A model generated the notes under the pieces. The model was not told the DNA's origin. It ran no database searches and saw nothing but the letters and a program-made list of their open reading frames with translations. A program made the translations under genes and the position numbers. This document shows, piece by piece, positions 7,059-27,264 of a stretch of 27,264 bases of DNA (position 1 is the stretch's first letter; each line of letters opens with the position of its first letter). The stretch comes from a virus, in the IMG/VR virus record IMGVR_UViG_3300044846_001178, positions 1 through 27,264 of that record. One strand, written 5' to 3'.

Positions 7059-8000
7059 ATGACGAATCTTAAACTCCTCCAATTATTAGAATCAATATTG
7101 GGTAAAGGGAAATCTACTTCCGGAGACAACATCGCATTCTTTTCTCCATTCGTTTCACATTACAAGCCTAAATTAGAAATTAACATTAAAACAACTAGTG
7201 CTGGAGAAAATCATTGGCACTGTTGGATATCTGATAAAAAAGGTCGAAGCATTGCTTCTTTGTTTAAACAATTAAATTTACCAAAAGAACGGTTTGAACA
7301 ACTTTCTAGAATAATTGAATCAGCAAAATATCGTGTTGATACAACTAAAGAAAAACAAGAAATAATACAACTACCAAAAGAATACATACCACTTTGGAAC
7401 AAAAAAAATACACCTGATTATCGAAATGCAATTCACTATCTTACACAACGAGGTGTATCTATTTTTGATATTTTAAAATATCGTATTGGATATTGCGAAG
7501 CTGGAGAATATTCCGGAAAAATTATTATACCAAGCTATGATGCTGATGGACAATTGAATTATTTTGTTAGTAGAGCATTTTATCAAGCTGATAAATTCAA
7601 ACATAAAAACCCTAAAATTTCAAAAGATATTATTGGGTTTGACTTGACAATTAATTGGGCAGAGCCAATCGTATTATGTGAAGGTGCATTTGATGCAATT
7701 GCAGTTAAGCGAAATGCCATTCCTTTATTTGGTAAAATTATTCAACCTGCACTTCAAAAGAAAATCATTGAAAAACGAGTACGAGACATTTATATTTGTT
7801 TAGATGCTGACGCATTACGCAATGCATTGCAATTTGCGGAACGATTTATGTCAGAAGGATTAAATGTATATTTTATTGAATTACAGGCAGAAGATGCATC
7901 GGAATTAGGTTTTAATAAAATTACAGAAATTATACAAAATACTTCAGTATTAACATTTGAACATGTTATAGAATTAAGAATGGGTCTTATATGGAAATAA
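7059..8000 (+). CDS. TOPRIM DNA primase-like protein (DnaG/gp61 type)
   Basis: This 313-residue protein has a C-terminal TOPRIM fold. I-V-L-C-E208-G-A-F-D supplies the conserved Glu, and Y-I-C-L-D249-A-D251-A the D-x-D. Together these bind the metal ions used to make RNA primers. The N-terminus (about 27-70) lines up with the DnaG zinc domain: S29-P-F stands where the family has C-P-F, and H-W-H-C55-W-I-S-D-K-K-G stands where the family has F-H-C-F-G-C-G. Most zinc ligands are therefore missing and only C55 remains. Length is close to T4 gp61 (342 residues). The last 10 bases overlap the start of the recombination nuclease gene, so the two are translationally linked. A TOPRIM nuclease is a less likely alternative. 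Confidence 0.8.
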   Translation: MTNLKLLQLLESILGKGKSTSGDNIAFFSPFVSHYKPKLEINIKTTSAGENHWHCWISDKKGRSIASLFKQLNLPKERFEQLSRIIESAKYRVDTTKEKQEIIQLPKEYIPLWNKKNTPDYRNAIHYLTQRGVSIFDILKYRIGYCEAGEYSGKIIIPSYDADGQLNYFVSRAFYQADKFKHKNPKISKDIIGFDLTINWAEPIVLCEGAFDAIAVKRNAIPLFGKIIQPALQKKIIEKRVRDIYICLDADALRNALQFAERFMSEGLNVYFIELQAEDASELGFNKITEIIQNTSVLTFEHVIELRMGLIWK

Positions 8001-11000
8001 AAAAAATACAATCAACTATTAGTAAAATTGATAAAATCTTTCATGTATCTGATATTCATATTCGTACATTGAAACGACATACAGAATACCGAGAAGTATT
8101 TCAAAACATGTTTAACTATATTAATAGTCATTCAACTGAAAATAGTATTGCAGTTGTTACTGGAGATATTGTTCACAGCAAATTAGATATGTCACCAGAA
8201 CTAGTACAAATGCTAGTTGATTTCTTTAATGGATTTGCAATACCTACAATTGTTATTCTAGGTAATCATGACATGAATTTAAATAATATGCATCGCATTG
8301 ATGCTGTTAGTCCTATTCTAGATGTTATTAATAATCCTAATATTATTTTTATCAAAGACAACGGGTTATTTGAATTTGGTGGAATTACATGGAATCATAT
8401 GGCAGTTGATAAAACACCTGATGAATATGTTCGAGCTAAAGATTTTGATGCACTATATAAAATTGCATTGCATCATGGAGCGGTAAATACTGCTAAAACG
8501 GATATCGGATATCAAATTTCAAATGAACATGTAACTACAGAAATGTTTGCTGGGCACGACATTACATTGTTAGGTGACATACATAAACCGGCACAATTTT
8601 TAGATGCTGCACAAACTATTGCATATCCTGGATCATTGATTCAACAAAATCATGGCGAAGCATTAGACCACGGCATACTAGTGTGGGACGTTGAAAATCG
8701 TCGTGCTGATTTTGCTGAAATACAAAATGATTATGGGTATGTAACTATAGAAACATTGGGTTCAACAATTGTTACATCACCTCATCGAATGCCAAATAAA
8801 CCTAGAATTCGTATTAAATTTAACGAGACTAGTGCAGCAGATATGAAACGGTTGATTGCAACTATTAGAAAAAAATACAATGTACAGGATATAACTATTC
8901 AAAGAACAATAACCAGTACTGACAATAATGCAGCAACTTCAATATCAATAGGCAATGTTAGAGATGTTGAATATCAGAATACGTTGTTAACTGATTATAT
9001 TGATATAAACTTTCCACAAGCAACCGCACAAGAACTTGATACAGTACGACATATCAATCGAACCATCAATTCAAAATTACCTGCAGTTGAATCAATACGA
9101 CATACAACATGGCATCCTATATCATTTGAATTTGAGAACATGTTTTCATATGGCGAAGGCAATGTTATTAATTTTGAAAACTTGTCAGATGTATGTGGTT
9201 TATTTGCTGCAAATACGTCAGGTAAATCTTCATTGTTAGATGCCATTACATATACTATATTTGATAAGTGTAGTAAAACAGGCAAAGCAAATGAAGTTTT
9301 AAACAACAAACAAACTACATTCAAAGGCGTTTTTAAATTTGAAATGAATGGCATTCAATATACAATTGAAAGACGCGGCACCAAGAAAAAAGAAAAACAT
9401 GTTAAGGTAGATGTAGATTTTTATACAGACACAGAAAATTTAAATGGCGAAGAACGAAGTGACACAAACAAATCAATTCGTCGTTATTTAGGTACATATG
9501 ATGATTTTATTTTAACTGCATTTTCACTTCAAGCTGACAATAACAATTTCATTGAAAAGTCGCAAAAAGAACGCAAAGATTTGTTGTCACAGTTTTTAGA
9601 TATTACGGTATTTGAACAACTATATCAACTTGCAGCTGATGAAATCAAAGAAACATCGGGCCGATTAAAAGATTATAAAAAAACAGATTTTGCAGAAATA
9701 ATTATTCAGTCTGATGATATTATAACTAAGAATCAAAATAAAATTCAAAAGTTAGAACAGTCAGAAGACGCGCTACAAGAAACTAGAAACACACTACAAG
9801 AAAAAATTGTTTCATTGATTGAAACAAAATTGCCAACTACATATGATGGACCTAATATCAATGCTTTAATTAAAATAGAGCAAAATTTAGAAAATTTAAT
9901 TGAACAACTACAAAAAGAAATTGAAATCTCAGAAACAGGAATTGAATCAATATCTGCAACAATTTCATCGGCAAGAACAAACATATCAAAAATTAATATT
10001 AAAGTTGTAACAGATAAATTACAGCAATTGCATAAATTGCAAGAACAACAACGTATTTTATTGTTACAAATTACAGCACAACAAGGAATATACAATGCGA
10101 AACAACAAAAAATTAATCATCTTAACACCCACGAATATGATCCAAATTGTAAATACTGTGCATCTAACGTATTTGTACAAGATGCAATCGAAGCCCAGAG
10201 TACGATTGACGCAGATCGAGAAACATTAAATTCGTTACAAGAAACAGCAACAGATTATGCATCTAAAATTTTAGCATTAAATGTACATGTTGCAACAAAT
10301 CAAACATTCAATGAATTAACTGCTAATATTGCAACAAATATTAATTTGCGAGAACGAGCAGAATTACAACAACAAATTTTAGAATCTGATTTACAAACTC
10401 GCGAATCTGAATTAGAAACATGTTTAGAACGGCAAGAATTGTTTAGTAAAAATGAAACAGCAATTAAACACAATGAAACGGTTGATGGATTAATTGATAC
10501 TTGCAAATCAGAAATTATAACATGCACTACTGATATAAAAACAATTCAGGAACAAATTAAAAACATGTACGGTGCTATTGAAGTAGCAAAAACACATAAA
10601 AGTACTGCATTAGAAAATTTAGAAAAATACCAACAACTAGAAATTGAATATAGAGCATATGAATATTATTTAGATTCAGTTAAACGAGATGGTATTGCAA
10701 TGGAACTAGTAGTTAAGGCACTTCCTAAGATAGAAGCAGAAATAAACAATGTACTCAATCAGATTGTTGAATTTAACATGGTATTGAATACTGACGGTAA
10801 AAATATCAACGGATATATTATTTATGATGAAGATAACTATTGGCCATTAGAATTAACAAGCGGCATGGAAAAGTTTATTGCATCATTAGCAATTAGAATT
10901 GCACTTATCAATGTATCAGCATTACCTCGTCCTAATTTTATTGCAATCGATGAAGGTTGGGGAAGTTTAGATGCAGAACATATTTCTGCAGTAGTAAATT

Positions 11001-11131
11001 TATTTGAATATTTTAAAACTAAATTTGATTTTTCAATAATTATTTCACACGTTGATTCTATGCGAGATATGGTAGATAATCTAATAGAAGTAAACAAGAT
11101 AAACGGATACAGCTGTATTAATCATTCGTGA
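7991..11131 (+). CDS. single-chain SbcD-SbcC / Mre11-Rad50-like recombination nuclease (gp47-gp46 fusion)
   Basis: This 1046-residue protein joins two T4 proteins in one chain. Residues about 14-340 are the Mre11/gp47 metallophosphoesterase: D21-I-H23, G58-D59, G91-N92-H93-D94, L-H-H-G, and G-D-I-H later. Residues about 370-1046 are the Rad50/gp46 ABC ATPase: Walker A A-N-T-S-G-K412-S-S, long coiled coils, a zinc hook C720-K-Y-C723 at the apex, signature T-S957-G-M-E, Walker B F-I-A-I-D987-E988-G, then S-L-D. The complex resects DNA ends to load recombinase for recombination-dependent replication. No stop or frameshift separates the halves; a linker near 340-370 joins them. Ten bases overlap the upstream primase gene. 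T4, T5 and bacterial versions are separate polypeptides. Confidence 0.95.
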   Translation: MEIKKIQSTISKIDKIFHVSDIHIRTLKRHTEYREVFQNMFNYINSHSTENSIAVVTGDIVHSKLDMSPELVQMLVDFFNGFAIPTIVILGNHDMNLNNMHRIDAVSPILDVINNPNIIFIKDNGLFEFGGITWNHMAVDKTPDEYVRAKDFDALYKIALHHGAVNTAKTDIGYQISNEHVTTEMFAGHDITLLGDIHKPAQFLDAAQTIAYPGSLIQQNHGEALDHGILVWDVENRRADFAEIQNDYGYVTIETLGSTIVTSPHRMPNKPRIRIKFNETSAADMKRLIATIRKKYNVQDITIQRTITSTDNNAATSISIGNVRDVEYQNTLLTDYIDINFPQATAQELDTVRHINRTINSKLPAVESIRHTTWHPISFEFENMFSYGEGNVINFENLSDVCGLFAANTSGKSSLLDAITYTIFDKCSKTGKANEVLNNKQTTFKGVFKFEMNGIQYTIERRGTKKKEKHVKVDVDFYTDTENLNGEERSDTNKSIRRYLGTYDDFILTAFSLQADNNNFIEKSQKERKDLLSQFLDITVFEQLYQLAADEIKETSGRLKDYKKTDFAEIIIQSDDIITKNQNKIQKLEQSEDALQETRNTLQEKIVSLIETKLPTTYDGPNINALIKIEQNLENLIEQLQKEIEISETGIESISATISSARTNISKINIKVVTDKLQQLHKLQEQQRILLLQITAQQGIYNAKQQKINHLNTHEYDPNCKYCASNVFVQDAIEAQSTIDADRETLNSLQETATDYASKILALNVHVATNQTFNELTANIATNINLRERAELQQQILESDLQTRESELETCLERQELFSKNETAIKHNETVDGLIDTCKSEIITCTTDIKTIQEQIKNMYGAIEVAKTHKSTALENLEKYQQLEIEYRAYEYYLDSVKRDGIAMELVVKALPKIEAEINNVLNQIVEFNMVLNTDGKNINGYIIYDEDNYWPLELTSGMEKFIASLAIRIALINVSALPRPNFIAIDEGWGSLDAEHISAVVNLFEYFKTKFDFSIIISHVDSMRDMVDNLIEVNKINGYSCINHS

Positions 11132-13884: not shown

Positions 13885-15939
13885 ATGAATAAAATAACAG
13901 TTTTATTTCCCGGAGGATTCAAACCATTAACCGGAGCACATTTAGCATTAGCTGAACGATATGCAGAAGATCCACAAGTTGAACAAGTAATTCTTTTAAT
14001 TGGTCCTATGCCACGAGACGGAATTACAAGACAAAAAACAATTGAAATGTTCGATTTATTAAATTCTAATCCAAAACTTGAAATGCGTCCAACGGAATTT
14101 AATTCTCCGATTACCGCTGCATATGAATACTTGTTTGCATTACCAGAAGACGCAACGGGACGATATGCAATGGCAGCATCTACGAAAGGAGATGATTATG
14201 TTCGTGCTAAAGCGTTTGTTCCAAATGTAGACAAATATGCAACAATCGGAGATAAGAAAGGTCGTACAATACCTGCGGGTATTGATGCTATTGAACTAAA
14301 TATTGATGTAGAACCATTAACATATGACACAGGACAACCAATATCAGCATCAACCGTTCGATTAAATTTAATGAAAAATGATTATAATGCGTTTAGAAAA
14401 TCATATCCAAATAACGACGATGCATATGTAAAAAATGCATGGCAAATATTAAGGGGAGTACAAGAAGATTCATTATTTACCAAAGAATGGTGGGCAAAAT
14501 CATTGCATGAAGATGTAGAAGAAGTAATTGAAGCCATAATGAATACGAGTGAGCGAGGAGCTCATAATAAAAAAATTACAAAATTGCGAAGTTATTTAGA
14601 TAACAATCGCGATGATTCATTTGTATATGACTTTGATAAATTTCCAAAAACTGTTTTTGGTGGCGTATTAACTGAAGGTGGTGCCGCAGGACATATGGCA
14701 CACCCATATGATGATCATGGATTAACTTTTAATGAAATGAAAGAAATAGTTTCTCGAGGATTAGAAGGACGTTTAGATATTGAAGAAGCAGTAACTGAAA
14801 AGACTGATGGACAAAATATTCAAATTACATGGAAAAATGGAGAAATTGGTTTTGCTAGAAATAAAGGCACTGTAATTAATCCTATGACAACCTCAGAAAT
14901 TATTGCAGACTTTGAAAGAAAATATCAAAAAAGTATTGCAACAAATGGAGTTGCTGGATCTGAAGGATATAAACTAGTAGTAGACGCATATCGAGCATGT
15001 GCGGAAGATTTAACAGAATCGTTAAGAATGATCCCAGCTGATAAATTAAATGAAATATTTAAAAACGGACGAGTATTTGCTAACATGGAAATAATTTATC
15101 CTGCAACTAAAAATGTAATTACATATGATAAAGCTCATTTACAGTTTCATAATTTAGTTGAATATGATGAAACCGGCAATGTTTTAGAAACTGATATGAC
15201 TGGCGGCAAGCTATTACAAGGCATTATACAAGATGCAAATGCACATCTTCAAAAAACATTTTCATTTATTCCTCCACAGCAAATTAAATTAGGCCGAGTA
15301 TATGATTTTGAAGATCAGCAAGCAGCATTTTTTAGCGAAATTGATCAGCTACAAAATAAATTTGGACTACAACCAACAGATCTTGTAACTGAATATCATA
15401 AGGCGTGGTGGAGTGATGTAATTAAATCAAAAGCACAAACATATGCATATGATATTCCAGATAGTATATTAGAATCACTAGTATATCGATGGGCATTTAA
15501 TATTAAATCAACTAATATTACAATTCTTAAAAAAGGAATTGACAACCTAGAATTTGCAAATTGGGTAGCTGAATTTGATAAAAAAGATTTTAAAGTGTAT
15601 CAAAAACAAAACATGGAACCGTTTGAAAACATCTTTTTAAAGCTAGGAGCAGTTGTATTAAAAAATGCAGAAAATTTCTTAGCAGCAAATCCATCCGCTA
15701 CCGTACAAGAAATAAAACGTGAGCTAGCTGAATTAACTAGAGAGTTACAAACAAAAGGTGATGATGTTACTATTAAAAAATTAGAACACGAATTAAAGCG
15801 TTTACAGAAACTAGGCGGCTTCGAAGCAATTGTACCATCAGAAGGAGTTGTATTTGTATACGGCGGACATACATATAAATTAACAGGGGCATTTGCACCA
15901 ATCAATCAGATACTAGGAGTATTGAAATATACACGATAA
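13885..15939 (+). CDS. fusion of HIGH-superfamily nucleotidyltransferase and RNA/DNA ligase-like enzyme
   Basis: This 684-residue protein has two catalytic parts. Residues 1-170 are a HIGH-type nucleotidyltransferase (NMN adenylyl- or cytidylyltransferase fold): F-P-G-G-F12-K-P-L-T16-G-A-H19, a T-x-x-H variant of H-x-G-H, and I153-S-A-S-T-V-R159 matching the I-S-S-T-x-x-R motif. Residues about 270-684 carry covalent nucleotidyltransferase motifs: E-K306-T-D-G (adenylated Lys), A-R325-N-K-G, F-A-N-M-E402 (motif III), E653-G-V-V-F (motif IV) and Y-K665-L-T-G (motif V). The linking stretch holds E-G-G-A-A-G-H-M-A-H-P. Likely chemistry is nucleotide transfer to a small metabolite (perhaps NMN) and end-sealing of nucleic acid, probably RNA repair. 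Substrates are inferred, not shown. It stands alone between candidate promoter motifs among structural genes. Confidence 0.82.
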   Translation: MNKITVLFPGGFKPLTGAHLALAERYAEDPQVEQVILLIGPMPRDGITRQKTIEMFDLLNSNPKLEMRPTEFNSPITAAYEYLFALPEDATGRYAMAASTKGDDYVRAKAFVPNVDKYATIGDKKGRTIPAGIDAIELNIDVEPLTYDTGQPISASTVRLNLMKNDYNAFRKSYPNNDDAYVKNAWQILRGVQEDSLFTKEWWAKSLHEDVEEVIEAIMNTSERGAHNKKITKLRSYLDNNRDDSFVYDFDKFPKTVFGGVLTEGGAAGHMAHPYDDHGLTFNEMKEIVSRGLEGRLDIEEAVTEKTDGQNIQITWKNGEIGFARNKGTVINPMTTSEIIADFERKYQKSIATNGVAGSEGYKLVVDAYRACAEDLTESLRMIPADKLNEIFKNGRVFANMEIIYPATKNVITYDKAHLQFHNLVEYDETGNVLETDMTGGKLLQGIIQDANAHLQKTFSFIPPQQIKLGRVYDFEDQQAAFFSEIDQLQNKFGLQPTDLVTEYHKAWWSDVIKSKAQTYAYDIPDSILESLVYRWAFNIKSTNITILKKGIDNLEFANWVAEFDKKDFKVYQKQNMEPFENIFLKLGAVVLKNAENFLAANPSATVQEIKRELAELTRELQTKGDDVTIKKLEHELKRLQKLGGFEAIVPSEGVVFVYGGHTYKLTGAFAPINQILGVLKYTR

Positions 15940-16791: not shown

Positions 16792-17436
16792 ATGTCTAAA
16801 AAGTTACAAAATGTTAAAGCCGTTCAACAAATGTTGGATGGTAATCATAAATTCCAAACAAAAAAAACAACGGGATTTAGTGATGCAAAATTAGTTGCAC
16901 AGAAAAATGAACGGCATGAAGTTGGGGATACTTGGGAAGAAACTGATTCAACAGGTAATATATTTGTTATAGAACAAAGAGATGGCTTCCGAATCAGAAA
17001 AACAAAAAATTCAGAAATTTTTCAAGAACTTCGAGATGATTTAAAATCATTTCCTAATTGTAGAAAAGAAACATGTACATGCACAGGCACACATCGACTC
17101 GATAAAAAAATGCAAGTAATTCATAAAATGTGTTTTGATTGCGTAATTGATATGGAACACGAAATGACAAAAGCTGGTACATATAAAGAATATTCTAAAA
17201 ATAAAATTCGTGAAAATGCATTAGCTTGGTTAGCATCAGCTGAACGAGATGTCGACATGTTAAAGCAAACATATACTCAAGCAGCTGAGTTTGTTACTAA
17301 TAGTGATGGTGCATTAGAAACTTGGAGTGCAAAAATGACTCCGGCTGAATTTGAAGAAACAGTGCTAGCACAATTTAATAAATTTAAAGAAAACTTTTTA
17401 AGAAACTTAGACGGAGAATCAAATGAAAACAATTAA
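16792..17436 (+). CDS. Cys-cluster protein in the small-terminase-like position, function unknown
   Basis: This 214-residue protein carries a probable zinc site: C90, C95 and C97 in F-P-N-C-R-K-E-T-C-T-C, then C114 and C117 in H-K-M-C-F-D-C. A basic N-terminal region precedes it. The second half is helical and acidic (A-W-L-A-S-A-E-R-D-V-D-M-L-K-Q). Its last 14 bases overlap the next gene. Being upstream of the large terminase, it occupies roughly the place of the T4 small terminase (gp16), and its size is similar. However, I see no helix-turn-helix and two membrane-protein genes lie between, so the assignment is only a possibility. A late regulator or assembly protein is equally compatible. 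Confidence 0.6.
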   Translation: MSKKLQNVKAVQQMLDGNHKFQTKKTTGFSDAKLVAQKNERHEVGDTWEETDSTGNIFVIEQRDGFRIRKTKNSEIFQELRDDLKSFPNCRKETCTCTGTHRLDKKMQVIHKMCFDCVIDMEHEMTKAGTYKEYSKNKIRENALAWLASAERDVDMLKQTYTQAAEFVTNSDGALETWSAKMTPAEFEETVLAQFNKFKENFLRNLDGESNENN

Positions 17437-17788
17437 ACCGCAGCAATGGAAAGTTTCAATGCTTAAGTATTGGAAATGGATAGTTGCTGGAATAGTAGCA
17501 ATATTAGGTATATTAGCAATTACACAATCAAAACGTAACAATAAAAAATTAGAAAAAACTGCAAAACAAATTGATGATAATAATCAACAAATTGATATAA
17601 TCCAAGGCAAAACAGAATTAGTTGAAGAACAGCGTGTACATGTAAAACAACGTATTGCAAAAAAACAAGCAACTATTGATGAATTAAAAACAGAAAAAGA
17701 AACAATATTGGTTGGGCCTGTTGCAATCGAAAATGCTAAAGAAAATATAATTAAAAAAACACGACGAGGACGTACATCAAAATTATGA
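17423..17788 (+). CDS. single-pass membrane protein with coiled coil
   Basis: This 121-residue protein overlaps the previous gene by 14 bases. GGAGA sits a few bases before the ATG, an unusually good ribosome site for this window. Residues about 17-34 (W-K-W-I-V-A-G-I-V-A-I-L-G-I-L-A-I-T) form one transmembrane helix near the N-terminus. From about 40 to 100 the sequence is a charged, heptad-like coiled coil (K-L-E-K-T-A-K-Q-I-D-D-N-N-Q-Q-I). The C-terminus is basic (K-K-T-R-R-G-R-T-S-K-L). An N-terminal anchor plus periplasmic coiled coil is the layout of an inner-membrane spanin, but signal-anchor topology is not certain because Lys residues lie on both sides. It overlaps the next membrane gene by ATGA, suggesting they work together. 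Confidence 0.65.
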   Translation: MKTIKPQQWKVSMLKYWKWIVAGIVAILGILAITQSKRNNKKLEKTAKQIDDNNQQIDIIQGKTELVEEQRVHVKQRIAKKQATIDELKTEKETILVGPVAIENAKENIIKKTRRGRTSKL

Positions 17789-18171
17789 AAAAATTTATAA
17801 TCATATTATTATTTCCAATCATTGGGTTTTCACAAAAAACAACAAAACCTGATACATGTTTTACTCAACAAGAACTTGCTGATATATCATTTGTATTGGA
17901 TTCACTTTGGGCTGCTGACGACATTAATAACAAATTAATTTGGGCGTATGACACAGTATTACTTACACAAAATACTTTAATTAAATTAGATTCAATACAA
18001 TTACAGTATAAAGATACTCAAATTAAATTGTTGCAAGACAACGTTGATTTATATGTAGCTCGAGAAAAATTATTACAACCAAAGTGGTATGATAAAAAAG
18101 GTTTGTGGTACGGAGCAGGATTTTTATCAGCATTAGGTGCTGGAATATTAGTTAATCAACTTATAAAATAA
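17785..18171 (+). CDS. exported protein with Bacteroidetes-style signal peptide and C-terminal membrane segment
   Basis: This 128-residue protein starts in a 4-base ATGA overlap with the preceding gene. Residues 1-16 (M-K-K-F-I-I-I-L-L-F-P-I-I-G-F-S) followed by Q17 form a signal peptide of the style common in Flavobacteriia. There is no lipobox Cys. Residues about 50-100 are heptad-like, and residues 108-126 (W-Y-G-A-G-F-L-S-A-L-G-A-G-I-L-V-N-Q-L) can span a membrane. The mature protein would be a periplasmic coiled coil anchored at its C-terminus. With the adjacent N-anchored coiled-coil protein it could form a lysis (spanin- or holin-like) or envelope-remodelling pair. This is inference from topology and overlap; no lysis family was recognised. 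Confidence 0.65.
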   Translation: MKKFIIILLFPIIGFSQKTTKPDTCFTQQELADISFVLDSLWAADDINNKLIWAYDTVLLTQNTLIKLDSIQLQYKDTQIKLLQDNVDLYVAREKLLQPKWYDKKGLWYGAGFLSALGAGILVNQLIK

Positions 18172-18176
18172 ACAAC

Positions 18177-19754
18177 ATGTCAGCAACTATAAAACAGATT
18201 ATTCAGCAACAATATATGATGTGTGCTAAAGATCCTGTTTTTTTTATGCGACAATATTGTTATATACAACATCCAAAAAAAGGTAAGATTAAATTTAACC
18301 TTTTTCCATTTCAGGAAGAGTCATTAACTGATTTACGAGATAATCGATACAGCGTTATACTTAAATCAAGACAGCTAGGAATATCAACACTGTCAGCAGG
18401 ATTTGCATTATGGAGCATGTTGTTTGCAGAAGACTTCAACGTACTAGTTATTGCAACAACACAAGAAGTAGCAAAAAACCTAGTAACTAAAGTGCGAGTA
18501 ATGCACGACAATTTACCTAGTTGGTTAAAGGGTACAATTGAAGCAGACAATAAATTATCTCTCAAATTTAAAAATGGCTCACAAATTAAAGCAGTATCAT
18601 CTGCCACAACAGGAGCACGTTCAGAAGCATTATCATTGCTTATTATAGATGAAGCTGCATTTATTCGTAACATTGAAGAAATTTGGATAGCGTCGCAAGC
18701 AACACTATCAACGGGTGGAGGGGCTATAGTTTTGTCTACACCAAACGGAGTAGGTAACTGGTTTCATCAAACATGGGCAGAGGCTGAAGCAGAGATAAAT
18801 GGATTCCATACAATTAAATTGAATTGGGAACTACACCCGGAGCGTGACCAAGCTTGGCGCGACCAACAAACACAATTATTAGGCGAAAGAGGTGCGGCAC
18901 AAGAATGTGATTGCGATTTCATTAGTTCAGGTCACACTGTAATTGATGGTGCTATATTAATGGAATTTGATGAAAAATGTATAGACCCAATTGAAAAGCG
19001 AGGCTTTGACAATGCGTATTGGATATGGGAATATCCTGACTATGCTAAAGATTATTTAGTTGTAGCAGACGTTGCGCGAGGTGATGGTGGTGACTGGTCT
19101 ACATTCCATGTTATTGATGTACAAGATGTACGACAGGTTGCAGAGTATAAAGGCAAACTGCCACCAAAAGATTTCGGTAATATGCTCGTAACAGTTGCAA
19201 CTGAATGGAACAATGCATTGCTAGCAATTGAAAATGCAAACATTGGTTGGGCTGCAATTCAGCCGGCATTAGACAGAAATTATGAAAATATATTTTATAC
19301 ATATAAAGATGACGGATACGTTGATACTGATGTACAATTGAAAAAAGGTTATGATATGAAAGATAAGAGCCAAATGGTTCCTGGAGTATCAACTACAACT
19401 CGTACACGACCATTAATGATATCAGCACTAGAAATGTATATGAGAGAGCGAACACCAGTAATTAGAAGCAAACGATTGATTCAAGAATTGTTTGTGTTTA
19501 TTTGGTTAAATGGTAAAGCTCAATCGCAAAGTGGATACAATGATGACTTGGTTATGGCATTCTGTATCGGGTTATGGTTACGTGATACATCACTCAAGTT
19601 AAGACAACAAGGTATTGAATTAACAAAACGGTCATTATCGCAATTTCAAAAAACAGATCCAGTTATATATACAGGCCGAGCATCCGATCAAGCAGATGGT
19701 TGGTCGTGGAATAATGGATATAATGATGAAGATTTAACATGGCTTATACGTTAA
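18177..19754 (+). CDS. gp17: large terminase subunit (gp17-like packaging ATPase/nuclease)
   Basis: This 525-residue protein is the motor that translocates DNA into the prohead and cuts concatemers. The ATPase domain has a variant Walker A K63-S-R-Q-L-G-I-S-T71, Walker B L-L-I-I-D158-E159-A, and coupling motif L-S187-T-P-N-G. The nuclease domain has D298 in V-A-D-V-A-R-G-D-G-G-D-W-S-T, E352 in A-I-E-N-A-N, and D456/D457 in Y-N-D-D-L-V-M-A-F, the RNase H-like acidic triad. Length is a little under T4 gp17 (610 residues). The usual Walker A Lys before Ser/Thr is replaced by Ile69; Arg65 or Lys63 may take its place. It begins five bases after the previous stop and ends before a candidate promoter for the portal gene. 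Confidence 0.95.
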   Translation: MSATIKQIIQQQYMMCAKDPVFFMRQYCYIQHPKKGKIKFNLFPFQEESLTDLRDNRYSVILKSRQLGISTLSAGFALWSMLFAEDFNVLVIATTQEVAKNLVTKVRVMHDNLPSWLKGTIEADNKLSLKFKNGSQIKAVSSATTGARSEALSLLIIDEAAFIRNIEEIWIASQATLSTGGGAIVLSTPNGVGNWFHQTWAEAEAEINGFHTIKLNWELHPERDQAWRDQQTQLLGERGAAQECDCDFISSGHTVIDGAILMEFDEKCIDPIEKRGFDNAYWIWEYPDYAKDYLVVADVARGDGGDWSTFHVIDVQDVRQVAEYKGKLPPKDFGNMLVTVATEWNNALLAIENANIGWAAIQPALDRNYENIFYTYKDDGYVDTDVQLKKGYDMKDKSQMVPGVSTTTRTRPLMISALEMYMRERTPVIRSKRLIQELFVFIWLNGKAQSQSGYNDDLVMAFCIGLWLRDTSLKLRQQGIELTKRSLSQFQKTDPVIYTGRASDQADGWSWNNGYNDEDLTWLIR

Positions 19755-19805: not shown

Positions 19806-21644
19806 ATGGCGTCTCTAAGAAAACGGTTAAAGAATCTTTTCAGCACGAATGTTATTGTTCGTTCATATGGTAAAGATAAATTACGAGTAGTAGATACAAA
19901 TCGATTACAGTCGACTGGAAACATAACTCAAACAAAAATAGCAGATCGATATACAAGAATGCATGGTGCTAATAGGCATATGGCAGGTGGTATGGGTGGG
20001 TATGATTCTAACTATTATATGCATCAAAATCGTATGCAGTTATATACTGATTACGAAATGATGGATAAAGATCCTATTATATCATCAGCATTAGATATAT
20101 ATTCAGACGAATCAACACTAGCAGATCAATTTGGTGATATTTTAACAATTAAAACATCTAAAACACAAATACAAAAAATACTTTATAATTTATTTTATGA
20201 TATTTTAAATATTGATTTTAATTTATGGACATGGATTCGTAACATGACCAAATATGGTGATTTCTTTTTAAAACTAGATATTGCTGAAAATATTGGTATA
20301 TTAAATGCAAGACCATTTTCTAGTTATGAAATTGAACGATTTGAAGAATATGATGAAGCCACAGGAGAATATAAAATTACATTCAAACATGTAGGAGCTC
20401 CAAATTTTCCATATGATGTATTTGAAGTAGCACATTTCCGTATGCTATCAGATTCTAACTTTTTACCATATGGTAGATCGATGTTAGAAGGTGCACGTAA
20501 AGAATTTCAAAAATTAATGATGTTAGAAGATGCAATGCTTATTCATAGAATTATGCGTGCACCTGAAAAACGTATTTTTAAAATTGATATTGGTAATATT
20601 CCAACAAATGAAGTAGATTCATTCATGGAACAAATTATCACTAAAATGAAAAAAATTCCGCACATTGATTCACAAACAGGTAATTATAATCTTAAATTTA
20701 ATCTTAACAACATGTTAGAAGATTATTATTTACCGGTTCGAGGAGGACAATCATCCACATCAATCGATACATTACCAGGAATGACCTTCACCGGAATTGA
20801 AGATATCGATTATGTTAAACACAAAATGATGGCTGCACTTAAAATACCTAAACCGTTTTTAGGATATAGTGAAGCAGTAGAAGGCAAAACTACATTAGCG
20901 TCAATGGATATTAGATTTGCTAGAACAATTGAACGTATTCAAAAAATTGTTGTATCAGAATTAACTAAGATTGCGATTGTACATTTATATGCACAAGGAT
21001 TTGAAGGAGAAGATTTAATTGGATTTGAGTTAGAATTAACATCACCATCAATTATTTATGATCAACAAAAAGTTGCATTAATGAATGAAAAAATAACATT
21101 AGCTAATGCAATGAAAGATTCAAAATTAGTTTCTGACAGATACATATATGAATATATTTTTAATATGTCAGAAGAACAATGGCTACAAGAACGCAATGAT
21201 GTAGTAGAAGATCTTAAATTAAGGTTCCGTCAAAATCAAATTGAACAAGAAGGAAATGATCCAGCAATCACCGGCGTATCATATGGCACACCGCATGATT
21301 TAGCTACCGTTCATATGTCATCAAATGAAGTAGAGACAAAAGATCCCGGAGGTCGTCCTAGGGAAGGAATTAAATTTGGTCAACATAAAAATGAATTCGG
21401 ATGGGATCCTACAGGTAAAAAAGAAATAGATCAGGCATTTTCAATAAAAAATCAAAGCTCAACATTTACTCCAGATTCTCGAGCCGATAAAACAATTAAA
21501 TCAACAACAGAAAGTCGACACAACATATTAAAATACTTAAAAAATAAAAATCCAGAAATACTTTTAGAATCATTAAAATCAAATAAAATAACACAAATTG
21601 ATTTAGATGCCGGAACAATGTTAGATGAAAACAACATTTTATAA
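19806..21644 (+). CDS. gp20: portal vertex protein (gp20-like)
   Basis: This 612-residue protein forms the dodecameric portal at the unique head vertex, nucleating the prohead and docking the terminase. Family features visible are D-P-I-I-S-S-A-L-D-I-Y-S-D-E-S-T near residue 90, then R-A-P-E-K-R-I-F-K-I-D-I-G-N-I-P near 255. Further on come Y-Y-L-P-V-R-G-G-Q-S-S-T-S-I-D-T-L-P-G near 315 and K-I-P-K-P-F-L-G-Y after it. It is longer than T4 gp20 (524 residues), mostly through a C-terminal tail from about 500 that is polar and probably flexible (D-P-G-G-R-P-R-E-G-I-K-F-G). The start at 19806 has no Shine-Dalgarno. In T4, tail sheath and tube genes 18 and 19 lie between 17 and 20; here the two genes are adjacent. 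Confidence 0.95.
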   Translation: MASLRKRLKNLFSTNVIVRSYGKDKLRVVDTNRLQSTGNITQTKIADRYTRMHGANRHMAGGMGGYDSNYYMHQNRMQLYTDYEMMDKDPIISSALDIYSDESTLADQFGDILTIKTSKTQIQKILYNLFYDILNIDFNLWTWIRNMTKYGDFFLKLDIAENIGILNARPFSSYEIERFEEYDEATGEYKITFKHVGAPNFPYDVFEVAHFRMLSDSNFLPYGRSMLEGARKEFQKLMMLEDAMLIHRIMRAPEKRIFKIDIGNIPTNEVDSFMEQIITKMKKIPHIDSQTGNYNLKFNLNNMLEDYYLPVRGGQSSTSIDTLPGMTFTGIEDIDYVKHKMMAALKIPKPFLGYSEAVEGKTTLASMDIRFARTIERIQKIVVSELTKIAIVHLYAQGFEGEDLIGFELELTSPSIIYDQQKVALMNEKITLANAMKDSKLVSDRYIYEYIFNMSEEQWLQERNDVVEDLKLRFRQNQIEQEGNDPAITGVSYGTPHDLATVHMSSNEVETKDPGGRPREGIKFGQHKNEFGWDPTGKKEIDQAFSIKNQSSTFTPDSRADKTIKSTTESRHNILKYLKNKNPEILLESLKSNKITQIDLDAGTMLDENNIL

Positions 21645-22538: not shown

Positions 22539-23200
22539 AATCAATAATAACTGAAATGTCAAAACAATTTCATAAAATTGAATCTGAATTTTGTGAATCA
22601 TGTGACAGGCCTAAATCTAATTGCGGTTGTGATGAAGAATTAGACGAAATGAATACAACTGGTGCTGTTGCTGGATATAATACACCTGCAGCATTTGCAA
22701 AGCCAGGTAAATGGAAAGGCAAACAAGCTCGATACGAAAACGTAAACACATCACCGTCTTATAAATTTGATAGTCTTCATGAACCAGAATCAGACGAAGA
22801 AGATCAGTCAGATAAAAATTTTGCAGTAGGTCCAAATTCATCATGGCATAAAGAAGCCGCAGAATATCCAACTGATGACCGAAAATTAGAACCTGTTAGT
22901 CACATGTATAATAAAGTTCAAGAAGCAATGGATAGCAAATATGAAGCTATTATTGAATCATATCGTAAATTTACTACGGATGATGCAACAACATCGCCTG
23001 AACAAAAAGTTAAAAAAACAATTCGTGAGGTATCAAAACGACTTCAAGAAATAGAAGAAATGGTAAATCATAGTTCTAGATTGAAAATTGAATCTGGGTT
23101 ATCTAGAGATGGCTATGGTAAATCAGTTAATACTGCATTAACAAAAATATCAGAACGATTAACAAAAATAGCAGAACGTGTGAGAGCATTAGGAGAATGA
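22535..23200 (+). CDS. hypothetical head-module protein with N-terminal Cys cluster
   Basis: This 221-residue protein starts in a 4-base overlap with the preceding gene. Near the N-terminus, F-C20-E-S-C23-D-R-P-K-S-N-C30-G-C32-D-E-E is a compact C-x2-C...C-x-C cluster that could bind one zinc. The middle (about 45-120) is polar and probably disordered. The C-terminal 100 residues are helical and charged (V-K-K-T-I-R-E-V-S-K-R-L-Q-E-I-E-E-M, then T-K-I-S-E-R-L-T-K-I-A-E-R-V). It ends one base before the prohead protease gene, whose Shine-Dalgarno lies inside its last codons. A core or scaffold accessory role is possible; the family is not recognised. Confidence 0.65.
   Translation: MKSIITEMSKQFHKIESEFCESCDRPKSNCGCDEELDEMNTTGAVAGYNTPAAFAKPGKWKGKQARYENVNTSPSYKFDSLHEPESDEEDQSDKNFAVGPNSSWHKEAAEYPTDDRKLEPVSHMYNKVQEAMDSKYEAIIESYRKFTTDDATTSPEQKVKKTIREVSKRLQEIEEMVNHSSRLKIESGLSRDGYGKSVNTALTKISERLTKIAERVRALGE
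23191..23195 (+). promoter_or_regulatory. Shine-Dalgarno for the prohead protease
   Basis: AGGAG at 23191-23195 lies six bases before the ATG at 23202 and inside the last codons of the upstream gene. It is one of the few strong anti-SD complements in the window. Confidence 0.6.
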
Positions 23201-23201
23201 T

Positions 23202-23831
23202 ATGACAAAACAACTAATATTAGAATATATGCCGTTTAATCCGATTGGTTCATTGTCAGAATCATCAGGCGCAGCTTTTGGTGTACCAGGAGGTTTTGTA
23301 GTACAAGGAATTTTACAACGAGCTGGCGCAAAAAATCAAAACGGCAGAATATATCCTAGAGTAATTTTAGAAAGAGAATGCAAACGTTATCAACAAGAAT
23401 ATATAGATCAACATAGAGCATTAGGCGAATTAGATCATCCAGAATCATCAGTAGTCAATTTAAATAACGTTTCACATAATGTGCTTAAAATATGGTGGAA
23501 GGGTGATGATTTATGCGGGGCAGTACAAATCTTAGAAACACCGTCAGGTAAGATTCTTAAAGAACTATTCAAAGCTGGAATCACTTTAGGTATTTCAAGC
23601 CGTGGATTAGGTTCCGTTAAAGAATTACGTAGTGAGGGTGTAGTAGAAGTACAAGAAGACTTTGAATTAATATGTTGGGACTTTGTATCTAATCCATCTA
23701 CACAAGGGGCATTTATGCGTCCTACGCACATGAACGAATCAACGAATAAACAAACCACCAATAACAAATATAATAAAGTAAACAGCATTATTACATCTAT
23801 TTTATGTGATGATGGCAAATGTAGGATATAA
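23202..23831 (+). CDS. gp21: prohead core protease (gp21-like)
   Basis: This 209-residue serine protease matures the T4-type prohead by cutting scaffold and capsid proteins after short (L/I)-x-E motifs. The conserved features are N-G-R-I-Y-P after the first strand, G-E-L-D-H79-P-E-S with the catalytic His, and L-G-I-S132-S133-R-G with the catalytic Ser. D160 lies in I-C-W-D-F-V-S-N-P. Length matches T4 gp21 (212 residues). The last 35 residues, after P-S-T-Q-G-A-F-M-R-P-T, are polar and probably a removable tail. The likely substrates, the gp22-like scaffold and gp23-like capsid, are encoded about 1.3 and 2.3 kb downstream. Confidence 0.93.
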   Translation: MTKQLILEYMPFNPIGSLSESSGAAFGVPGGFVVQGILQRAGAKNQNGRIYPRVILERECKRYQQEYIDQHRALGELDHPESSVVNLNNVSHNVLKIWWKGDDLCGAVQILETPSGKILKELFKAGITLGISSRGLGSVKELRSEGVVEVQEDFELICWDFVSNPSTQGAFMRPTHMNESTNKQTTNNKYNKVNSIITSILCDDGKCRI

Positions 23832-24254: not shown

Positions 24255-24677
24255 ATGATGAATAACATTAAGAAATTATACAAACAGTTTTTCGGATACA
24301 AATTGAATGAGTCTGATTTAAAACAAAAAGAAATTGATGAAGCTCAGCTCGTTAATAATTTAACAGATTATCGAGGCGGTATTGAATATGTAGTTCGAGA
24401 TCCGCAAACAGCACAAAGTGTTTTAGATGAAATTCGACAATGGTCACAAAAAAAAGGGTTTACTATTATTAAAAGTATATTATCAAAAACAGGCCGTATT
24501 GGATACATCTATTATAGATTAGGTGAAGATCCTGCATTAGAGTCTCAAAAGTTACAAGGATATCTAGCACAAAAGCCAGAACTTAAACATTTTAGATTTA
24601 AAGTTCGAAACGAAAAATCATCATCAACACAAGCACCAACACAAGCACCAACACGTAATCCACAAAGAAACATTTAA
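24255..24677 (+). CDS. hypothetical small protein with Thr/Pro/Gln tail
   Basis: This protein is 140 residues from the first of two adjacent ATGs (24255, 24258). AGG lies six bases upstream of the first. Residues 1-20 are amphipathic (N-I-K-K-L-Y-K-Q-F-F-G-Y-K-L). Residues about 45-110 look like a small alpha/beta domain (I-I-K-S-I-L-S-K-T-G-R-I-G-Y-I-Y-Y-R-L). The tail carries a direct repeat T-Q-A-P-T-Q-A-P-T-R-N-P, encoded by repeated CAAGCACCAACA. No known family was recognised. It ends nine bases before the bS21 gene and could be co-translated with it. Confidence 0.6.
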   Translation: MMNNIKKLYKQFFGYKLNESDLKQKEIDEAQLVNNLTDYRGGIEYVVRDPQTAQSVLDEIRQWSQKKGFTIIKSILSKTGRIGYIYYRLGEDPALESQKLQGYLAQKPELKHFRFKVRNEKSSSTQAPTQAPTRNPQRNI

Positions 24678-24686
24678 ACTAGTTAT

Positions 24687-24932
24687 ATGACAAAAAAACA
24701 AAAACAACATCAGACAATAGTTCCAGGCAATTCATTAGCTGTTGCTGTTACAGGCACCGCACGTGAAGATTTATCATTTGCATTAAAAGTATGGAAACGA
24801 AAAATTAAAAACTCAGAAATATTAGAACAAACTAAAGCCCGTAAAGAATTTATTAAGCCTAGTGTTAAAAAACGAAAACAATTAATTGCTGCAAAATTTA
24901 TGCAAAAAGTTAGAGACTCACACGCAATTTAA
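24687..24932 (+). CDS. rpsU: phage-encoded ribosomal protein bS21 homologue
   Basis: This 81-residue basic protein carries the bS21 pattern from residue 27 on: E-D-L-S-F-A-L-K-V-W-K-R-K-I, then E-Q-T-K-A-R-K-E-F-I-K-P-S-V-K-K-R, then A-A-K-F71-M-Q-K-V-R-D. The F-I-K-P-S-V and A-x-(Y/F)-(I/M)-Q-x-x-R-D features resemble Bacteroidetes bS21 rather than the E. coli type. bS21 sits on the 30S platform beside the 3' end of 16S rRNA. Aligned on P-S-V, F71 stands where Flavobacterium bS21 has Tyr54, reported to help hold the anti-Shine-Dalgarno. The first 26 residues are an extension absent from host-type bS21. It has no Shine-Dalgarno and lies directly before the scaffold and capsid genes. Phage bS21 genes are known; the substitution and context are my observations. 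Confidence 0.88.
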   Translation: MTKKQKQHQTIVPGNSLAVAVTGTAREDLSFALKVWKRKIKNSEILEQTKARKEFIKPSVKKRKQLIAAKFMQKVRDSHAI

Positions 24933-25102: not shown

Positions 25103-25107
25103 AGGAG
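25103..25107 (+). promoter_or_regulatory. strong Shine-Dalgarno for the scaffold gene
   Basis: AGGAG at 25103-25107 lies five bases before the ATG at 25113. Most genes in this window have none, so this site stands out. Confidence 0.75.
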
Positions 25108-25112
25108 TAACT

Positions 25113-26126
25113 ATGGCAAAAACAGATTTGCTAAAACAAGCAATCGCTGATGCTAAGGCCGTTAAAGAAACTGCATTAGCTAACGCAAAACTTGCATTGC
25201 AAGAAGCATTCCAACCAACGATGATGCGAATGATCTCTGATCAGATCGAAAATGAAGTGGATGGAGAAGAAGAAATGCCTGCAGAAGAACCAGAAATGGA
25301 TATGGCAGCAGGAGAACAAGGAATGGGTGTTGAAGACGAAATGGAAAACGATTTTAATTGGACAGACGATAGTTTATCTGCAACAGTAGGCGGAAATGAT
25401 TATGACTTTACAGTTGGAATGAGTGGCGATGACGAAGAAATGCCAGAAGAAATGCCAGATGATGAAGACATGAATGCTGAATATGCAGACACAGACGCAG
25501 TATCTAATGATGATAATTTAGATTTAGAATCAATCATTCGCGAATTAGAAGAAGATTTAGATGCAGCCGCGCCAGAAGAGATGGAAGATACGTCACTTGA
25601 AGCTGAAGGCATGTATAATGAATCTGAGCATATGGACGGCGAAGAGGTTGATACAGAACTTAATGATATTATCGAAGCAATTCTTCGTGAAGACGAAATG
25701 ATGGCAGATGATAGTATGGCAGTTGCTGGAAACCCAGGAGATGCTGAAGAAACTGAAGTAGTAAAAGCTGAATTAGAAGAAGCATATAAAACGGTACGTC
25801 AATTAAGATCTATCATCAATGAAGTTAATCTTTTAAATGCAAAACTTCTTTTCACAAACAAATTGTTCAGAAACTTTGAATTATCAGAAAATCAAAAAAT
25901 GAAAGTAATTGAAAACTTTGATAGAGCTGGTAATCCAAGAGAAGTTAAATTAGTATTTACAACATTAGCTGAAGCATTTAAAAAACCTCAAGCAAAACGT
26001 GTAGTTAAAGAATCTTTTGCATCGCGTGCAACAACAACAACCGCGCCATCTAGACAAACAACACAAGTTTTATCAGAAGGATTTGAATTAGCAAATCGTT
26101 GGAAGAAACTAGCAGGATTATTGTAA
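25113..26126 (+). CDS. gp22: prohead scaffold/core protein (gp22-like)
   Basis: This 337-residue protein lies directly upstream of the major capsid gene, the position of T4 gp22. The N-terminus is helical (L-L-K-Q-A-I-A-D-A-K-A-V-K-E-T-A). Residues about 45-210 are extremely acidic and Met-rich (E-E-M-P-A-E-E-P-E-M-D-M, D-D-E-E-M-P-E-E-M-P-D-D-E-D), and the C-terminal part is a coiled-coil-like helix (about 215-290). Such composition suits an assembly scaffold that is destroyed by the gp21 protease; several L-x-E or I-x-E sites are present. It is longer than T4 gp22 (269 residues). It ends 36 bases before gp23. The assignment rests on order and composition, because scaffold sequences diverge quickly. 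Confidence 0.82.
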   Translation: MAKTDLLKQAIADAKAVKETALANAKLALQEAFQPTMMRMISDQIENEVDGEEEMPAEEPEMDMAAGEQGMGVEDEMENDFNWTDDSLSATVGGNDYDFTVGMSGDDEEMPEEMPDDEDMNAEYADTDAVSNDDNLDLESIIRELEEDLDAAAPEEMEDTSLEAEGMYNESEHMDGEEVDTELNDIIEAILREDEMMADDSMAVAGNPGDAEETEVVKAELEEAYKTVRQLRSIINEVNLLNAKLLFTNKLFRNFELSENQKMKVIENFDRAGNPREVKLVFTTLAEAFKKPQAKRVVKESFASRATTTTAPSRQTTQVLSEGFELANRWKKLAGLL

Positions 26127-26148: not shown

Positions 26149-26154
26149 AAAGGA
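26149..26154 (+). promoter_or_regulatory. Shine-Dalgarno for the major capsid gene
   Basis: AAAGGA at 26149-26154 lies eight bases before the ATG at 26163, inside a purine-rich, C-A-A-A-A-repeat spacer (26127-26162) that is likely unstructured. Confidence 0.65.
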
Positions 26155-26162
26155 AAAAAGAA

Positions 26163-27264
26163 ATGAGTATTTCAAATTTATTACAAACCAATGATTTCGT
26201 ACAAAGAAACAACGCTAAAGCGTTAGCTTCTAAGTGGGAAAGAACCGGTTTATTAGAAGGTATCAAAACCGAAACAGAAAGAGCCGGTATGGCTCAATTG
26301 CTTGAAAACCAAGCAAGACAACTAGTGAAAGAAGCATCATCTACAGGTGTTGCAGCTGGATCTGAAGAATGGGCTGGCGTAGCGCTTCCATTAGTAAGAA
26401 GAATTTTTGCTGAATTTGCAGCAAAAGAATTTGTATCAGTTCAGCCAATGAATTTGCCATCAGGTCTTATATTTTATTTAGACTTTAAATATGGTACATC
26501 TCAGCCTGGATTTGATAATGACAATTTAAACAGAACAGGTGATCCATTTGGTTCTCCTAACGCTGATGACTCTATGTTTGGTGTTACAACTACATCGGGT
26601 GATCCATCAGGTGGTTTATATGGTGCAGGTCGTTTTGGTTATTCAATTAACGAAGTAACAGCATCAGTAACAGCTGCAACTGGTTCTCAACCAACAACGG
26701 TACAAGTTAATGGTGATTCTGACTATTCAGGTTCTGCATCTTATAAAATGTTAACAGTTAATGTACCGACAAATGCAGATTTATATGCAGTTCGTTCATT
26801 TACATTTTTATCAGGATCTGGAGCTGGTACTGAAATTGTTCCAGTTCAAGCATTCTCTACAATTGATAGCAATTACACTGCATCATTTGTTGTAACAACC
26901 GCACAAGCAACTGCAATTCAATTGGCAATTTCTGCTTCTAATTTCAAATTAGAGTACAGCAAACAACCAACTGACACAACTAGAGGTGATTTTGAAGACA
27001 AGTTAACTTATGCTAACGGATATAACGTTGATATCGACATTCCAGAAATTAACTTGGAAATGCAATCAGAACCAATCGTTGCTAAGACTCGTAAGTTGAA
27101 AGCAGTATGGACTCCAGAATTTGCTCAAGATTTAAATGCATACCATTCAATTGATGCTGAAGCTGAATTGACTTCAATGTTGTCTGAATATGTATCCATG
27201 GAAATCGATTTAGAAATTCTTGATATGTTAATCGCAGCAGCTCCAACAACTGAGTATTGGTCAG
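26163..27264 (+). CDS. gp23: major capsid protein (gp23-like), 3' truncated by the window
   Basis: The frame is open from ATG 26163 to the right edge (367 complete codons; T4 gp23 is 521 residues). It builds the hexamers of the head shell. Family features are G-L-L-E-G-I near residue 30, A-G-S-E-E-W-A-G-V-A-L-P-L-V-R-R near 70, and V-Q-P-M-N-L-P-S-G-L-I-F-Y-L-D-F near 97. Toward the edge come E-M-Q-S-E-P-I-V-A-K-T-R-K-L-K-A-V-W-T-P-E-F-A-Q-D-L, a highly conserved gp23 stretch, and M-L-S-E-Y-V-S-M-E-I-D. Possible protease sites of L-x-E type occur at L30-L-E32 and L46-L-E48 in the N-terminal region expected to be removed on maturation. It follows the scaffold gene with a good ribosome site and no terminator between, so the two are probably one mRNA. 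Confidence 0.96.
   Translation, partial: MSISNLLQTNDFVQRNNAKALASKWERTGLLEGIKTETERAGMAQLLENQARQLVKEASSTGVAAGSEEWAGVALPLVRRIFAEFAAKEFVSVQPMNLPSGLIFYLDFKYGTSQPGFDNDNLNRTGDPFGSPNADDSMFGVTTTSGDPSGGLYGAGRFGYSINEVTASVTAATGSQPTTVQVNGDSDYSGSASYKMLTVNVPTNADLYAVRSFTFLSGSGAGTEIVPVQAFSTIDSNYTASFVVTTAQATAIQLAISASNFKLEYSKQPTDTTRGDFEDKLTYANGYNVDIDIPEINLEMQSEPIVAKTRKLKAVWTPEFAQDLNAYHSIDAEAELTSMLSEYVSMEIDLEILDMLIAAAPTTEYWS

Follow-up and report, generated by a model that had tools for sequence, protein, structure and literature searches.

N-terminally extended bS21 proteins of T4-like phages with probable Bacteroidota hosts, and Shine-Dalgarno motifs before their head genes

What does a phage gain from a gene for a ribosomal protein, and could this protein influence which mRNAs the host ribosome selects? 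Phages encode bS21 more often, by far, than any other ribosomal protein. The question is of particular interest for the Bacteroidia, whose ribosomes hide the anti-Shine-Dalgarno (anti-SD) sequence; in F. johnsoniae, no gene other than rpsU is preceded by an obvious SD (PMC9976891), and a strong SD was confirmed in the bacterial rpsU genes that we examined. Here we analysed a 27-kb IMG/VR virus contig (27,264 nt, the entire stretch being referred to as the window) that encodes an rpsU homologue of 81 amino acids at positions 24687-24932 (+ strand).

The open reading frame is intact and matches the Pfam family Ribosomal_S21 (PF01165) with an E-value of 2.5e-9 and 37.1 bits, the curated cut-off being 27. 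Its best relative in the PDB is bS21 of F. johnsoniae (7jil_z, E-value 2.5e-7); residues 27-78 of the phage protein pair without gaps with residues 10-61 of 7jil_z, which places Phe71 (codon 24897-24899, +) opposite Tyr54. The Bacteroidia signature A-x-[YF]-x-Q is present as well, here with Phe71. The initial annotation had described a phage bS21 of the Bacteroidetes type with a characteristic C-terminal motif, with Phe71 at the place of Tyr54 and with an N-terminus about 17 residues longer than that of the host protein, all of which is borne out, except that the register offset of 17 is composed of about 15-16 residues of true extension plus a small loop insertion. Relatives are encoded in 112 IMG/VR stretches according to a first scan, at least 119 stretches contain the extension motif described below, and the phage bS21 genes are under purifying selection (pN/pS about 0.2-0.4); the reading frame is therefore real and not a chance occurrence. 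An AlphaFold2 model (pLDDT 88) predicts the three helices expected of bS21 (residues 26-43, 45-52 and 58-80), although a Foldseek search of the PDB with this model gave no match at E<=0.001.

The gene is part of a T4-like head module with all genes on the + strand: large terminase (terL, 18177-19754; Pfam E-value 7e-15), gp20-like portal (19806-21644; Portal_T4, E-value 4.7e-67), two unknowns, gp21-like prohead protease (Peptidase_S77, 23202-23831; Pfam E-value 1e-32), two further unknowns, bS21, an acidic protein of 337 amino acids (25113-26126) and the gp23-like major capsid protein (MCP, 26163-27264), truncated where the contig stops. The MCP start, MSISNLLQTNDF, is the same as in the MCPs of related contigs, which match the MCP of Flavobacterium phage immuto. 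The acidic protein lies between protease and MCP, as does the scaffold gene (gp22) in T4; since it has no Pfam or PHROG match, we call it scaffold by position only. SD motifs precede the protease gene (AGGAG, 23191-23195), the scaffold-position gene (AGGAG, 25103-25107) and the MCP gene (AAAGGA, 26149-26154), whereas terL, portal and the start region of bS21 (24665-24686) are without any.

Some further features of the window may be mentioned. Just upstream of terL, the overlapping reading frames 17423-17788 and 17785-18171 resemble a spanin pair: the first protein combines a membrane anchor at its N-terminus with a coiled coil, and the second has a signal peptide as well as the conserved motif DTCFT. 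Region 7991-11131 encodes a protein of 1046 amino acids that, by eye, looks like a fusion of an SbcD-type phosphoesterase and an SbcC-type ATPase. A protein of 684 amino acids (13885-15939) combines a nucleotidyltransferase-like N-terminus with a large C-terminal part; it has relatives in phage Mel-JY01 (annotated as cytidylyltransferase-like) and in huge phages, and with its N-terminus only in the Prevotella Lak phages. Rfam gave no match on the window. As to tRNA genes, one contig had four and the other none.

According to the initial annotation, the exchange of Tyr for Phe, with loss of the hydroxyl group, could relax the occlusion of the anti-SD. We consider this very improbable. Among 87 distinct extension-bearing phage proteins, position 71 is Phe in 47 and Tyr in 40 and never any other residue, and the adjacent A69 and Q73 are invariant, so that only the aromatic ring is conserved here. 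On a bS21 tree calculated without the column of position 71, the Phe/Tyr label changes seven times, with at least two changes forced by well supported branches, and phages of both kinds use SDs alike; the two residues are thus equivalent, and Phe71 was rejected as the functional change. Phages with a bS21 that lacks the extension have His or Tyr at position 54. Chen et al. (2022) likewise reported that phage bS21s retain an aromatic residue at position 54 (Tyr, His or Phe), with Phe occurring once (PMC9723584).

Phe54 also exists in bacteria: a scan of 84,980 bacterial species for the Phe pattern returned 14 stretches, five of which are true Bacteroidota bS21s, namely that of Capnocytophaga catalasegens and those of four Bacteroidales-like MAGs. 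The rpsU gene of C. catalasegens has a strong SD, which the four MAG copies lack. Because a Tyr-codon pattern proved overly strict as a denominator when applied to 395 Bacteroidota genomes, bS21 was read out by a genome search with PF01165; Tyr54 predominates in the sampled Bacteroidota sequences of the Bacteroidia type and Arg is found in the others. Phe54 is thus present in hosts but rare, so that the finding which would strictly have refuted the initial annotation, Phe being common in host bS21, was not obtained. In F. johnsoniae, Tyr54 is described as stacking on A1534, and the point mutation studied there is Y54A rather than Y54F (PMC9976891). The partial derepression of SD reporters by Y54A speaks for the hydroxyl explanation, yet for stacking the ring alone suffices, which, together with the alternation of Phe and Tyr and the bacterial Phe54, leaves the lost hydroxyl a weak explanation.

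The N-terminal extension offers a better candidate. It comprises residues 1-21 (MTKKQKQHQTIVPGNSLAVAV, 24687-24749, +), and a motif of about 16 residues, M[NST]KKQKQHQxIVPGN, begins nearly all relatives. Both column conservation and pN/pS identify the extension as the most conserved and constrained part of this bS21 family. Since some members of the set had been gathered by means of this very motif, its conservation was examined again with loci retrieved through other stretches: in pairs not selected on the extension, pN/pS is 0.21 for the extension, whereas the remainder of the protein has 0.41 and 0.33, and in a wider set the values are 0.18 versus 0.34 and 0.31. A counterpart was found in none of 69 bacterial bS21s, there was no match among PDB sequences, and the phage collection searched contained no isolate with the extension. 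AlphaFold2 predicts a short helix at residues 3-8. McNutt et al. locate bS21 next to uS11, where the 5' end of the mRNA leaves the ribosome through its exit channel (PMC9976891), and we infer that the extension would be directed toward this channel.

Phages with the extended bS21 have a pronounced SD signal, AGGA, GGAG and GAGG peaking at positions -13 to -8 of their genes. An SD precedes 213 of 733 unique genes (29.1%), compared to 40 (5.5%) at a control position. The bS21-less set of 80 T4-like relatives plus immuto, also deduplicated, has SDs at 36 of 664 genes (5.4%) and at 58 (8.7%) at the control position (Fisher test between the sets, 2e-33); many contigs are fragmentary, and for 31 of the 80 relatives the lack of bS21 was verified across the portion of the head module that their contigs include. 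Gene starts were taken as the first ATG of the longest reading frame, a rule that blurs the signal without creating it, and one caller served for all sets. An unbiased ranking of 5-mers near starts yielded AAAGG, AAGGA, GGAGA and AGGAG for the extension-bS21 phages, but only A/T-rich words for the bS21-less set. In six long contigs with the extension, 21-33% of the genes have an SD, compared to 62% in T4 and 2% in immuto.

The SDs are unevenly distributed among genes. In matched orthologues from phages with versus without bS21, they precede 88 versus 31% of the scaffold-position genes, 75 versus 0% of the MCP genes and 71 versus 16% of the protease genes, but 0 versus 3% of terL and 0 versus 1% of portal genes. 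Counted by bS21 cluster (31 clusters), the scaffold position has an SD in 27 of 30, MCP in 16 of 19 and protease in 19 of 30, while terL (0/24) and portal (0/26) have none; by sequence, 62 of 70 relatives have an SD at the scaffold-position gene. Early-type genes, ssb, recA-like and groEL among them, also bear SDs, so that SD use is not strictly late. The bS21 gene of the phages has no SD in any of 87 relatives and thus lacks the extended autoregulatory SD of Bacteroidia-type bS21 genes, whereas 31 of 55 bacterial rpsU genes have an SD. Median pairing energies are -8.2 kcal/mol for the scaffold position, -7.3 for protease, -6.2 for MCP and -0.3 for phage bS21, versus -16.5 for host rpsU.

Phages that encode a bS21 without the extension showed no SD excess; for example, SDs precede 6% of the genes in a His54 phage. 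Possession of bS21 alone is therefore insufficient, and attention shifts from bS21 as such to its extension, although these phages are unrelated to the window family. In a portal tree, the bS21-encoding phages and those lacking the gene fall into two clades, with just one change between them. The link between bS21 and SDs is hence a single contrast, for which another clade-specific gene or the host could be responsible.

Bacteroidota hosts are strongly indicated by three lines of sequence evidence: signal peptides, kinship to immuto and the Bacteroidia-type bS21 core. In Bacteroidetes, Gln is exposed after signal-peptide cleavage (Q-rule; PMC5837995). The secreted protein at 17785-18171 (+) follows this rule (MKKFIIILLFPIIGFS, followed after the cleavage site by QKTT), as do 34 of 73 signal peptides in the extension phages and 29 of 50 in immuto relatives; in the extension phages, Gln at +1 amounts to 23.6%, versus 4.3% in protein bodies. 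The window resembles immuto in terL (54% identity) and portal (46%), in line with a T4-like Bacteroidota phage, and sister contigs share enzymes with immuto at up to 73% identity (QueE 69%, FolE 72%) and a holin at 63%. The Bacteroidota promoter TAnnTTTG is overrepresented in the DNA of Bacteroidota and of a His54 phage, but neither in the extension phages nor in immuto; since immuto is a known Flavobacterium phage, the motif was discarded as uninformative for host calling. The 318-kb contig of an extension-less His54 bS21 phage has 16 such motifs versus 5.5 expected, and no SD signal. A counter-sign to Bacteroidota is Mel-JY01, a relative recorded from Microcystis.

The best overall explanation, which we regard as about evenly balanced between right and wrong, is that a lytic T4-like Bacteroidota phage makes a functional bS21 from this gene, and that this N-extended protein enters host ribosomes and enables SD use on phage mRNAs. 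Somewhat less probable, and put forward tentatively, is the further-reaching proposal that a phage ribosomal protein makes SD-blind Bacteroidota ribosomes read SDs, opening a private channel for SD-tagged mRNAs with the extension as the operative part. bS21 suggests itself as the agent since it is the one obvious translation protein and its own gene avoids SDs. Being translated without an SD, it could be made by the SD-blind ribosomes of the host, and its synthesis would escape the SD-based autoregulation that governs host rpsU. The phage protein would then displace host bS21 on 30S subunits, its C-terminal half and the ring at residue 71 preserving host docking, while the conserved extension would enter the mRNA exit region, where the anti-SD would be freed or re-presented. 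Ribosomes altered in this way could pair with the moderate SDs upstream of the genes for scaffold, capsid, protease and further products of high output, and late phage mRNAs would thereby be favoured over SD-less host mRNAs.

In support of this mechanism, alteration of bS21 in F. johnsoniae raises the translation of strong-SD mRNAs (PMC9976891), and in vivo incorporation into E. coli ribosomes is documented for one phage bS21 (PMC6375957). Against it count that loss of bS21 in F. johnsoniae did not help a weak-SD mRNA (PMC9976891), that the phage SDs are far weaker than that of rpsU, and that the retained ring and docking residues would equally suit a protein that occludes the anti-SD, the view taken in PMC9723584. 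The general idea was put forward earlier, with respect to different clades of phages (PMC9723584, PMC9976891). Of the original suggestion that a phage bS21 retunes anti-SD use, the link to SDs is plausible, and Phe71 as the means finds no support.

Three alternatives deserve discussion. It is possible, though rather unlikely, that another phage factor, or a phage-caused loss of host bS21, frees the anti-SD and that the phage bS21 merely refills ribosomes for general initiation. bS21-less ribosomes do gain activity on SDs and lose activity on other mRNAs (PMC9976891), such that a phage removing host bS21 might need its own, and the single clade contrast leaves other genes confounded with bS21; however, mere refilling does not explain why constraint on the protein is strongest in the extension, and a candidate for a protease that attacks bS21 did not emerge. 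We assign a similarly low probability to hosts that read SDs anyway, with the phage SDs being ordinary and bS21 a host-matched supply protein. Most phyla do commonly have SDs at canonical spacing, a syntenic bS21 and SDs are also present in the related Mel-JY01, whose recorded host is Microcystis, high Q-values occur in some non-Bacteroidetes of the wider group (PMC5837995), and the Bacteroidota promoter motif is not enriched. Such hosts are difficult to reconcile with Q-rule signal peptides near the level of immuto relatives, with a Bacteroidia-type bS21 carrying Phe or Tyr at position 54, where the other classes sampled have Arg, and with close gene kinship to a Flavobacterium phage.

Quite improbable, finally, is that the phage protein acts like that of the host, as in the model of Chen et al. 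(2022), occluding the anti-SD by stacking on A1534 and selecting phage mRNAs via a divergent N-terminal helix. The ring is kept in every relative and the model has been published for other clades (PMC9723584), but it leaves the strong gene-specific SD signal unexplained, and a ribosome with an occluded anti-SD would make SDs pointless or even detrimental.

Our search of the literature, which covered few subscription journals, retrieved no paper in which the use of SDs by Bacteroidota phages is connected with a phage bS21. In the models published so far, phage mRNAs are taken to be translated preferentially, but no signal on the mRNA is named. A candidate signal is available here, as SDs before specific head genes accompany a distinct form of bS21 and bS21-less sister phages do not have them, although the strongly indicated Bacteroidota hosts do not use SDs. 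The question thereby becomes testable by reporter assays in Flavobacterium. If true, exchange of a single protein would allow a virus to change which mRNAs the host ribosome selects. A large group of water-borne viruses with probable Bacteroidota hosts carries the extended bS21, and our data suggest, but do not prove, that this protein re-tunes host ribosomes toward viral messages.

Among known systems, bS21 of F. johnsoniae (PDB 7jil; PMC9976891) shares with the phage protein the Bacteroidia-type core, including F-I-K-P-S-V, A-x-[YF]-x-Q, the aromatic residue at position 54 and the register. The phage family differs by its conserved extension of about 16 residues, by Lys instead of Asp24 (87/87), Val or Ile instead of Phe23 and Trp at position 19, and by the lack of the extended autoregulatory SD of F. 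johnsoniae rpsU. The Bacteroidetes phages of Chen et al. (2022; PMC9723584) also have bS21 next to head genes, an aromatic residue 54 and predicted Bacteroidetes hosts; their bS21 is, however, encoded on the strand opposite to the structural genes, whereas window and Mel-JY01 have both on the same strand, and the window family has, in addition, the extension and SD-bearing head genes, in contrast to the extension-less bS21 phages sampled. Pelagiphage HTVC008M likewise encodes a bS21, the one shown to enter E. coli ribosomes (PMC6375957), but of the alphaproteobacterial type and with no tie to SD-blind ribosomes. Closest in gene order is Microcystis phage Mel-JY01 (PP395634; bS21 at 7953-8180), which shares the succession protease, one gene, bS21, scaffold position and MCP, the use of SDs and an N-terminus of similar length, while its bS21 has Lys instead of an aromatic residue at position 54 and a diverged N-terminal motif. 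Its terL (58% identity) and portal are closer to those of the window phage than are those of immuto, and it has one Q-rule-like signal peptide; given this kinship and the signal peptide, the Microcystis host record of Mel-JY01 deserves checking.
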